From NCBI GenBank assembly GCA_018396405.1, contig JAGTQD010000006.1:1-45878 (forward strand): a stretch of 45,878 nucleotides of DNA. Direction: 5' to 3'. Under the pieces are notes generated by a model. It had not been told where the DNA came from. It searched no databases and saw only the letters and a program-made list of their open reading frames with translations. Below are positions 6,212-28,448 of this stretch, one piece after another. How positions within the stretch are numbered: the stretch's first letter is position 1; each line of letters begins with the position of its first letter. The position numbers were made by a program, and so were the translations under genes. This stretch comes from Candidatus Bathyarchaeota archaeon. Its GTDB lineage: Archaea > Thermoproteota > Bathyarchaeia > Bathyarchaeales > DTEX01.

Positions 6212-6294
6212 AAAAGGTTTTTATTTTTCTTTAAACCTATAAGTATTATCATTTACCTATACATTGTCGGTATAATTTAGGGGTGTTTGCGGAA

Positions 6295-7374
6295 ATGGTC
6301 ATTAAAGTTGCTTTAGCTGGTATTGGCAATTGTGCTTCAGCGCTAGTTCAGGGCATAGAATACTATAAAGACGCTAAGGATGGTGAGATCGTTCCAGGGC
6401 TTATGCATGTAAATTTTGGCGGCTATCATATTAGAGACATAAAGTTTGTGGCAGCCTTCGACATTAACCGACTAAAGATTGGAAAAGATTTGAGCGAGGC
6501 GATATTTGCTGAGCCAAACTGCTGCGCAAGGTTCGTTGAATCAATGCCTAAATTGGGCGTTAAGGTTCTCCCGGGCCCAATCCTTGATGGCGCCTCCCCA
6601 CATATGCTGGAGGCATTCAAAGTTTATTCTGAGGAGGATCTTGAACCTGTAGACGTTGTCTCAGTATTGAGGGAAGTCGATGCAGATATGCTGGTAAACT
6701 TCCTCCCAGTCGGCAGCTACCACGCTACACGCTATTATGCTGAGGCTGCGCTTAAAGCTGGATGCGCATTCGTCAATTGTATTCCGGAGTTCATTGCAAG
6801 CGATAAGGTTTGGGCTGCTAAATTTGAGGCAGCTGGCTTACCGGTCGCTGGCGATGATATTAAAAGCCAGCTGGGGGCGACAATCCTACATAGAGCTATC
6901 GTTAACCTATTTGTTGAGAGGGGTGTTGTGATTGATGAAACCTATCAGCTTAACATTGGCGGAAACACCGATTTCCTAAATATGACCCTTGAGGAGAGAT
7001 TAAAGACTAAGAGGATAAGTAAGACTGAGGCTGTAACAAGCCTTGTTCCATATGATGTGCCGACTAAAATTGGCCCATCAGATTACATACCATTCCTTAA
7101 GGACAAAAAGGTATGCTACATCTATGTTAAAGGCAGGAACTTTGGGAATCAACCTGTAACATTGATGCTGAGGCTTGAGGTTGAGGACTCCCCGAATAGT
7201 GCGGGCGTTGTTATAGACGTGATAAGGGCGGTTAAAATAGCCCTGGATAGGGGTATATCTGGCCCATTAATAAGCATATCTGCTTATGCATTTAAGCATC
7301 CACCAGTCCAGGTTCAGGACGCGGTAGCGAGGCAATGGGTTGAGGAGTTTATAGAGGGGAGGAGGGAGCGCTGA
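6295..7374 (+). CDS. ino1: myo-Inositol-1-phosphate synthase
   Basis: This NAD-dependent enzyme turns glucose-6-phosphate into L-myo-inositol-1-phosphate, the first step to inositol phospholipids and to the thermolyte di-myo-inositol phosphate. The N-terminal Rossmann motif is ALAGIGNCASALVQG. Further family blocks are FVAAFDINRLKIGKDLSEAI, FVNCIPEFIA, GDDIKSQLGATI and NIGGNTDFLNM. The length of 359 residues fits the short archaeal/actinobacterial form. I chose the ATG at 6295, nine bases after AGGGGTG; the GTG at 6283 lies inside that ribosome-binding site. It is the first gene of a three-gene operon with the two enzymes that turn its product into DIP phosphate. Confidence 0.95.
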   Translation: MVIKVALAGIGNCASALVQGIEYYKDAKDGEIVPGLMHVNFGGYHIRDIKFVAAFDINRLKIGKDLSEAIFAEPNCCARFVESMPKLGVKVLPGPILDGASPHMLEAFKVYSEEDLEPVDVVSVLREVDADMLVNFLPVGSYHATRYYAEAALKAGCAFVNCIPEFIASDKVWAAKFEAAGLPVAGDDIKSQLGATILHRAIVNLFVERGVVIDETYQLNIGGNTDFLNMTLEERLKTKRISKTEAVTSLVPYDVPTKIGPSDYIPFLKDKKVCYIYVKGRNFGNQPVTLMLRLEVEDSPNSAGVVIDVIRAVKIALDRGISGPLISISAYAFKHPPVQVQDAVARQWVEEFIEGRRER

Positions 7375-7377
7375 GAG

Positions 7378-8136
7378 GTGCGCGCGGTAATATTGGCGGC
7401 TGGAAGGGGGGCTCGCCTCCATCCATACTCAGAAAGCATCCCAAAATCATTAATCAAAGTTCTTGGAAAGCCCCTACTAGAGAATACAATCCTGGTTCTC
7501 AAGAGGGCGGGAATAAAAGATATAACTATAGTTATTGGATATCTAGGGGATCAGATTAAAAAGTATCTGGGTGATGGAAGAAGTTTAGGTGTGAGGATCA
7601 ATTATTGCTATAATCAAAACTATACTCTTGAGAACGCAGTCTCCTTGAAAGAAGCTGAAGGAGAACTACGTGGCGAACGGCGTTTTCTACTTTTGATGGG
7701 AGACCATTACTTTGAGGATGGAATAATAGAGTCTATCCTTAGGGAGGGGGGAGATCGCATCCTCTTATGTATCGATAGGAGCCCCAGCCACCCACCCCAA
7801 ATCAAGGATGCAACCAAGGTTTTAGTTGACGGGGATAATCGTATAATTGATATTGGAAAAGATATACGTGTATGGAATGCTGTCGACGCTGGTCTATTCA
7901 TGCTCGACAATAGTATTTTTGGGGTGATCCACACACTAGAGGCGGAGAAGCCCAGCGTATCAATAACAGACTGCATAAAGTATTTAACGCAGAGGGTGAA
8001 GCCAGTTTATGGGTTCGATATCTCCGGGCATTTATGGTTCGATATAGATACACCCCAGGATATTGAGTTCATAAATACTTTTCTGGGGAAAATGGATGCC
8101 AAGAGAGTGGGACGGGATAGTCTCACAATATATTAA
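7378..8136 (+). CDS. CTP:inositol-1-phosphate cytidylyltransferase
   Basis: The enzyme activates inositol-1-phosphate with CTP to CDP-inositol for DIP synthesis. The 252-residue protein has the sugar nucleotidyltransferase signature LAAGRGARLHPYS at the N-terminus, PKSLIKVLGKPLLE, LLLMGDHYFED as the metal-binding aspartate region, and WFDIDTPQDIEF near the end. The GTG start at 7378 follows GGAGGAGG and lies three bases after the ino1 stop. The call rests on sequence type plus context, since the product of the gene before is the substrate. In Archaeoglobus this domain is fused to the next enzyme; here the two frames overlap by 41 bases instead. Confidence 0.88.
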   Translation: MRAVILAAGRGARLHPYSESIPKSLIKVLGKPLLENTILVLKRAGIKDITIVIGYLGDQIKKYLGDGRSLGVRINYCYNQNYTLENAVSLKEAEGELRGERRFLLLMGDHYFEDGIIESILREGGDRILLCIDRSPSHPPQIKDATKVLVDGDNRIIDIGKDIRVWNAVDAGLFMLDNSIFGVIHTLEAEKPSVSITDCIKYLTQRVKPVYGFDISGHLWFDIDTPQDIEFINTFLGKMDAKRVGRDSLTIY

Positions 8137-8716
8137 TCGAAGAGTCTCCCGCCCCATGGCGAAATTCCTAGCAAAGCATACATGTATCTCACCTAACCAC
8201 ATAACATTCATAAGCTTCTTGACGGCAGTATTCTCCGGAATAGCATTCTCGCTAAACTATATGATGCTTGGCGGCGTTCTAGCCCAAATAGCATCTATCT
8301 TGGATGGAGTGGACGGGGATCTGGCCGTTCTTACTAATAGAGTTTCACCCTTCGGCGGTTTCCTAGACGCCATGCTAGACCGCTACGGTGATGCAGCGAT
8401 TTTAATGGGTATGACCTATCTCATCGCAACCACCAAATGCTATGATATTGCATGTATTATTGTGGCGTTTGCAGCATTACTTGGCTCTTTGCTCGTAAGC
8501 TATAGTAGGGTGCGTGCAAGGGCAGATTTGGGATTAGCGTTTAATAGAGGTTTCACGGGATACGCCGCAAATAGGGATGTCCGACTCTTCATAATAATGG
8601 TTGGAGGGCTCCTAGGCCAAGCTTTTATAACACTCGCCCTAATAGCATCCTTAACAAACTTAAACGTTATGTCACGCATATGGATCTCTTGGAAAAGTGT
8701 TAAGGTGGAGAAATGA
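8096..8716 (+). CDS. Di-myo-inositol-phosphate-phosphate synthase (CDP-alcohol phosphotransferase family)
   Basis: The membrane enzyme joins CDP-inositol and inositol-1-phosphate to form phosphorylated DIP. The CDP-alcohol phosphotransferase motif is present as D70-x2-D73-G74-x2-A77, then G87-x3-D91-x3-D95. The usual arginine after A77 is valine (V78). Several transmembrane helices are visible. The start is ATG 8096, and the N-terminal DGIVSQYINRRVSRP is what relatives show right after the cytidylyltransferase domain, so the gene must begin inside the upstream frame. Relative to that frame it is shifted by one base just after a GGGGAAAA run. A kinase-free phosphatase step that gives DIP would be encoded elsewhere. 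Confidence 0.87.
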   Translation: MPREWDGIVSQYINRRVSRPMAKFLAKHTCISPNHITFISFLTAVFSGIAFSLNYMMLGGVLAQIASILDGVDGDLAVLTNRVSPFGGFLDAMLDRYGDAAILMGMTYLIATTKCYDIACIIVAFAALLGSLLVSYSRVRARADLGLAFNRGFTGYAANRDVRLFIIMVGGLLGQAFITLALIASLTNLNVMSRIWISWKSVKVEK

Positions 8717-26920: not shown

Positions 26921-27541
26921 CTAGGATGATGCTCTCCTGTAAAAATAGATGATTCTTTGGAGGACTGTAAAATTTGATGCTATGGCTAAAACAAGTATGC
27001 CGATGCGCAATGCGGATAAGGATGGGCAAATAACTTCTATTAAAGATGAGATTAATATGATTATAATTCTCTCAGCCCTCTCAACCAAACCGACGGACTC
27101 CATTAATACGCCGGAGGACTCTGCTCTAGCCCTGGCATAGCTCGTTAGTAATGAACCTATTAATGCTAATGCCCCCCAGAGTAGATCACATAGCCTGCCG
27201 AGGATCAGGCCGAGCAAGACCGCGGAATCCACATATCTATCGACTATAGAGTCGAGGAAGCCTCCAAAAGCTGTTACCCCGCCACAGGTTCTGGCCATGA
27301 CACCATCCAAAGCGTCACAAATGCCTGAAAGAAGGAGGAAAAGGAGTGCTAGGATCAAGTAAACTCTATATATATTTAAGTCTGTAGATAGCACGCCAGC
27401 CGCCCAATAGATTATCCCAGAAGAGAACCCCATAATTAATCCTATGAGGCTTATTATATTTGGTTTGAGGCCGGTTCTATAGATTATTTGGGACCAGCTG
27501 GCTAATAATTCCTGTAATTTTAGCTTAAGTTTGGTTAACAT
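26921..27541 (-). CDS. Archaetidylinositol phosphate synthase (CDP-alcohol phosphotransferase)
   Basis: A 206-residue integral membrane enzyme expected to join CDP-archaeol with inositol-1-phosphate, the first step of inositol ether lipids. The motif is complete: D76-x2-D79-G80-x2-A83-R84, then G93-x3-D97-x3-D101. About six helices are seen. Specificity is inferred from the match to archaeal AIP synthases and from the ino1 gene in the same window. Other CDP-archaeol transferases remain possible. The start lies 10 bases downstream of the DUF89 stop, so they form one unit. Confidence 0.8.
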   Translation of the reverse strand: MLTKLKLKLQELLASWSQIIYRTGLKPNIISLIGLIMGFSSGIIYWAAGVLSTDLNIYRVYLILALLFLLLSGICDALDGVMARTCGGVTAFGGFLDSIVDRYVDSAVLLGLILGRLCDLLWGALALIGSLLTSYARARAESSGVLMESVGLVERAERIIIILISSLIEVICPSLSALRIGILVLAIASNFTVLQRIIYFYRRASS

Positions 27542-27551
27542 TCTTCAGCAC

Positions 27552-28448
27552 TCAAGGATATAATAGTTTGGCCACATTTTTATTTCTCTCGACCCCAAAG
27601 TATCTGGCGACATTCTCGCATTTGGCTCTCAGAAGAAGGAGATGAGGCACCTTTATCTTCATCTCCGTTATTGTCTCAGCGTTAGCCATACCCTTAGCAA
27701 TAACAAAGTCAGCTGTCTCATAAATTTTAAGGAAATCTCTACTGCACTCTGATAGTATGAGCCCCATTGTATCGCTCCCAGTAGTGATCACTTCATCCGC
27801 CACCTTATCTATCCCAACGAATAAGGCATCCTCAAAAGTAGCATCGTTACAGACCGGCTTCTCTTTAACCGCGACTATAACTTTGCATCCAAGATCCTTT
27901 AGCTCCCTAATAAACAGTTTATCAAAGGCTATTTCACCAGAATTATCAGCCAAATAAACTATTAGTTTATCTCTTTTAAGGAGACTGAAAGCCACATAAA
28001 TATCATCTATTGCTAAGTCCATTTCAGCATTAATGAGCAGCCCATATAACTCGTTAAAGTCAAAGGTGTGGTCAGGGATGTCGAATTCTATAACGTTGCC
28101 AACAACAGCGTATAGACAAGCCCTCCTAAATCTCATATAGCCAGATTCCCTAGAGATAAGCTGTTCAGCGAGCGGAAGGATCTTCATAGTCTCAATATTA
28201 CTCAATACTTTTCTTTTTGCCATGGGGTCACTATTACCAGTCACATCTTTAATTATCCTCTCGCGCAGGGTTCCGAGGACTGCTGGCACAGCGTTTGGAT
28301 GGAAATTTTCGGCAAGCATCCTGAGAAGGTGAATTGTCGCCCTGAACCTCAGCTCTAAGTTATCTGTTGCCTCAAGTATCTCTAAATAACCCCTCTGGAA
28401 GAGACAGAGAGCACACTCAGGACTAACCTTCAATACTGATGCCTCCAA
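27552..28448 (-). CDS. DUF89/ARMT1-like damage-control phosphatase
   Basis: A 298-residue metal-dependent protein of the DUF89 family, whose members remove phosphate from harmful or side-product sugar phosphates and related metabolites. Typical blocks are the CALCLFQRG cysteine pair near the N-terminus (archaeal subgroup), LADNSGEIAFDKLFI with the metal-binding Asp-Asn, VKEKPVCNDAT, FVIAKGMANAE and LLLRAKCENVA. It sits directly before the CDP-alcohol phosphotransferase gene; its exact substrate is unknown, though a link to inositol phosphates would fit. Confidence 0.85.
   Translation of the reverse strand: MEASVLKVSPECALCLFQRGYLEILEATDNLELRFRATIHLLRMLAENFHPNAVPAVLGTLRERIIKDVTGNSDPMAKRKVLSNIETMKILPLAEQLISRESGYMRFRRACLYAVVGNVIEFDIPDHTFDFNELYGLLINAEMDLAIDDIYVAFSLLKRDKLIVYLADNSGEIAFDKLFIRELKDLGCKVIVAVKEKPVCNDATFEDALFVGIDKVADEVITTGSDTMGLILSECSRDFLKIYETADFVIAKGMANAETITEMKIKVPHLLLLRAKCENVARYFGVERNKNVAKLLYP

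Follow-up and report, generated by a model that had tools for sequence, protein, structure and literature searches.

In this study, we analyzed a 45,878-nt window, contig C65 of a Candidatus Bathyarchaeota metagenome-assembled genome (MAG) consisting of 108 contigs and 1.49 Mb. Three consecutive genes on the + strand encode a myo-inositol-1-phosphate synthase (MIPS, 6283–7374), a CTP:inositol-1-phosphate cytidylyltransferase (IPCT, 7378–8136; GTG start, 252 amino acids), and a DIPP synthase (CDP-inositol:inositol-1-phosphate transferase; DIPPS, 8096–8716; ATG start, 206 amino acids). The ATG of DIPPS at 8096 is located within IPCT, and the two coding regions overlap by 41 nt (8096–8136, + strand). 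The upstream stop codon in the DIPPS frame is at 8072–8074, and both frames are open over 8075–8136 with an offset of one base, in agreement with the original prediction that the second gene begins inside the first. Only the DIPPS reading of the overlap (MPREWDGIVSQYIN) is conserved; IPCT ends in a tail of ~14 residues (MDAKRVGRDSLTIY) that lacks conservation and results from out-of-frame reading of the beginning of DIPPS. Because 25–35% of the codon positions in the 14 long ORFs of the window are followed by 13 stop-free out-of-frame codons, the overlap is not improbable. A GGGG stretch (8085–8088, + strand), 7 nt 5' of the DIPPS ATG, is a candidate Shine–Dalgarno site.

The gene identities proposed from the sequence, a cytidylyltransferase and a DIP-phosphate synthase, are supported by Pfam, NCBIfam, and PDB matches and by the operon. 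MIPS matched PF01658 (1.2e-31); its NCBIfam TIGR03450 score of 444 bits is under the cut-off of 638. IPCT has a nucleotidyltransferase fold (PF00483, 3.1e-22), and its nearest solved homolog in a phmmer search is the inositol-1-phosphate cytidylyltransferase of A. fulgidus (2xme, best PDB match, 8.8e-23; 4mnd, 2e-22). DIPPS scored 41.4 bits with PF01066 (2.6e-10; gathering cut-off, 22), the score of a CDP-alcohol phosphotransferase family member, and matched the solved structures 4o6m (5.7e-24) and 4mnd (1.1e-20). Its match to the C-terminal half of NF041135 (1.4e-39) outranks that to archaetidylinositol phosphate synthase (3.7e-32), and this transferase-half similarity, together with the neighboring MIPS and IPCT genes, identifies it as a DIPP synthase. 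The named records most similar to it are Candidatus Bathyarchaeota MAGs. The window contains a second CDP-alcohol phosphotransferase gene (26921–27541, − strand), and an ARMT1-like damage-control phosphatase gene (27552–28448) lies 10 nt away from it.

The MIPS–IPCT–DIPPS order is retained in most relatives. A second MIPS copy, 78% identical to the operon copy, is present in the same genome (G000:C21:60304–61374), and MIPS is likewise present in two or three copies in several relatives. Di-inositol phosphate is a heat-protection solute, and a di-myo-inositol phosphate operon in this Bathyarchaeota group would fit a thermophilic or stressed lifestyle. Our literature search found no description of the di-myo-inositol phosphate genes of Bathyarchaeota.

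Split genes in related Bathyarchaeota

DIPPS orthologues were searched in 200 relatives and 257 genomes of the class. Close full-length DIPPS (56–67% identity, E < 1e-68) were found in 11 other Bathyarchaeota genomes, from the window's own genus and from five further families of its order, and were separated by a gap from distant sequences at or below about 50% identity. A twelfth genome (G029), in which DIPPS occurs in pieces at contig ends only, is not counted among the 11. The comparison of close relatives proposed in the original prediction gave a uniform result: all 11 orthologues are stand-alone ORFs of 204–226 amino acids, and an intact IPCT gene lies directly upstream in nine of them. 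The adjacent genes overlap by 10 nt (L004), 25 nt (L005 and L010), 8 nt (L006), or 2 nt (L009), or are separated by gaps of 3 nt (L007), 0 nt (L011), 2 nt (L012), or 5 nt (L013), and relative frames 0, 1, and 2 are all represented among these nine pairs. In L007 and L011, both genes share one frame and are separated by an in-frame stop codon, so no one-base change could join them. A clean split without overlap in relatives had been regarded as evidence against frameshifting; the nine pairs come close to this arrangement, being either clean or differently overlapping. The GGGGAAAA run at the IPCT/DIPPS junction was absent from all relatives compared.

The ends of the two proteins are also marked in the alignments. 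The DIPPS start occupies one alignment column with ATG, GTG, or TTG in 11 of the 12 sequences, a variation that fits an initiator codon and not an internal Met, Val, or Leu of a fused protein. IPCT homology stops at FINTFLGK (FINSLLMR in G004), where the relatives end, and the tail past this point is absent or different among the orthologues. The remaining two split DIPPS genes, L008 (G026) and L014 (G069), have no adjacent IPCT, and the gene upstream of DIPPS in both genomes is Alba-like as judged from the sequence by eye. The DIPPS contig of G026 carries a diverged IPCT-like gene (35%) on the other strand, while in G069 a short piece, ~TISDCMKNLVRS, which by eye resembles the C-terminal part of IPCT, seemingly remains before the DIPPS start.

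Junction length was measured between the IPCT DxD motif and the DIPPS DG motif. It is 61 nt in the window and 64–67 nt in the rest of the split clade, including 65 nt in the closest relative from the same genus (G004), which lacks the run. In fused genes, it is 60 nt wherever measured (Hydrothermarchaeum, Hadesarchaea, Thermoplasmatota, Firmicutes, and the class members G227 and G228), and 72 nt in three longer fused proteins (L015, L017, and L018). These three, from other class members, are fused IPCT–DIPPS frames of 634–648 amino acids with ~200 extra residues after the transferase domain. Since the split (61–67 nt) and fused (60 nt) forms are only a few bases apart, the junction lengths indicate that they are close evolutionary states, which gives the idea of a gene one base from fusion some evolutionary sense. 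The 61-nt junction would be explained most simply by a 4-nt deletion in the lineage of the window, because its nearest relatives have 65 nt.

In a tree of the DIPPS transferase domain, the 12 split members group together (91/89) beside a mixed group of fused and split sequences; support for the deep forks and for the root is too weak to place fission before fusion or the reverse. Several MAGs of anaerobic Firmicutes (L041–L045; Syntrophaceticus, Pelotomaculum, and others) carry MIPS and a fused IPCT–DIPPS whose identity to archaeal DIPPS is 42–45%, and these genes possibly arrived by gene transfer.

Two genes, an indel, or a programmed frameshift

We conclude with high confidence that IPCT and DIPPS are two truly separate genes with a slight overlap, forming part of a MIPS–IPCT–DIPPS operon for di-myo-inositol phosphate. 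Of the three readings offered by the original prediction, only that of a real split gene is supported, with 11 orthologues that are also split. Homology and operon context suggest that MIPS would produce inositol phosphate, IPCT would convert it to CDP-inositol, and a membrane-bound DIPPS would condense CDP-inositol with a second inositol phosphate.

Ribosomes most likely initiate DIPPS translation independently at the ATG at 8096, with GGGG at 8085–8088 as the putative ribosome-binding site, and the overlap suggests that initiation may be coupled to the termination of IPCT 41 nt downstream. A family search found no 16S rRNA gene in the source MAG, and no clear rRNA emerged from a pattern search for the 3' end of 16S; a generic anti-Shine–Dalgarno sequence was therefore used. 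Its duplex with GGGG has an energy of −5.5 kcal/mol, which was matched by 153 of 500 shuffles and is not significant. Pairing is stronger in L004, L005, L006, and L010 (26–38 of 500 shuffles), and GGAG, GAGG, or GGCGGAG occurs at about the same place in several relatives.

A sequencing or assembly indel, in which a base was added to the run of a gene that is truly fused, is very unlikely. At 61 nt, the junction is one base longer than the 60 nt measured in most of the fused enzymes sampled, and a one-base deletion anywhere in 8072–8136 restores a continuous frame. However, each of the 11 orthologues is a split gene, and the nearest junctions are 64–67 nt, so that fusion here would require a reversal within the split clade; moreover, the conserved start codon is in place, and the run is only 4+4 bases. 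The original prediction correctly noted that removal of one base from the run at 8085–8092 joins TFLGK to WMPREWDG, but each of the 65 single-base deletions in 8072–8136 likewise yields one continuous frame, and the run is therefore not special. Counting against the split reading, the source genome is a MAG for which no other assembly of its species turned up.

Least probable is a programmed +1 frameshift at GGGGAAAA that would yield both a short IPCT and a fused IPCT–DIPPS: the geometry permits it, as the frames differ by +1 and are both open over 62 nt, but the run is missing from the junction of every relative, the nine adjacent pairs fall in all three relative frames with in-frame stops in two, so that neither shift site nor frame relation is conserved, DIPPS has its own conserved start codon, and GGGGAAAA is common in the 1.49-Mb genome (85 occurrences, compared with 60 for a reversed control). 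Both the indel and the programmed shift were rejected on these comparative grounds of orthologue splits, frames, and junctions, and the run at 8085–8092 has no frameshifting role. A candidate recoding event is thereby removed; a clade of Bathyarchaeota maintains a separate gene for the second half of an osmolyte enzyme that is usually fused, and small overlaps and gaps at the IPCT/DIPPS junction drift freely.

The signature arginine and comparison with known enzymes

CDP-alcohol phosphotransferases share the signature D1xxD2G1xxAR...G2xxxD3xxxD4 with eight conserved residues (PMC4634129). In the cholinephosphotransferase structure, Arg119 coordinates the CDP diphosphate (PMC10182977), and its motif spacing from Asp111 identifies it as the signature Arg. 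The window DIPPS (signature at ~8306–8383) has seven of the eight residues, with Val in place of Arg; by Pfam score and homology it is classified in the family as a variant that differs in one signature residue. The Arg is replaced in all 12 members of the split clade (V, K, F, V, I, V, V, I, H, L, V, and D in the order L003–L014), while the other seven residues, including all four catalytic Asp residues, are retained. The Arg is retained (with one Lys) in fused relatives, in the other split relatives, and in the outgroup, which resembles archaetidylinositol phosphate synthase. Because the split L016, L020, and L040 keep it, the loss is a trait of this clade and not of splitting. We tentatively suggest that the split bathyarchaeal DIPPS clade might differ functionally, having an altered donor site, although this is the less probable interpretation of the substitution pattern; if so, the Arg-less DIPPS may bind CDP-inositol differently or take another donor.

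The fused IPCT–DIPPS of A. fulgidus (4mnd; IPCT domain, 2xme) and Thermococcales (NF041135) combines the two catalytic domains of the window genes in identical order, whereas here they are two proteins. The window IPCT and DIPPS each match half of NF041135 with ~136 bits, compared with a cut-off of 580 for the fused protein. MIPS is upstream in fused loci as well and directly adjoins the fused IPCT–DIPPS in Hydrothermarchaeum, Thermoplasmatota, and Firmicutes (L039, L041–L045, and L049), and the junction is 60 nt in most fused systems sampled versus 61 nt in the window. Among solved structures, A. fulgidus AF2299 (PDB 4o6m) is the top single match for the transferase half (5.7e-24), and the matches of the window IPCT do not include it. 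Split IPCT and DIPPS genes are reported for a few hyperthermophiles. These have separate genes for the two steps, as in the window, which differs in belonging to Bathyarchaeota and in its short overlap. Within the same class, L016 and L020 have a separate DIPPS with an ORF in another frame ending just upstream; together with L040, they keep the signature Arg that the clade of the window lacks.
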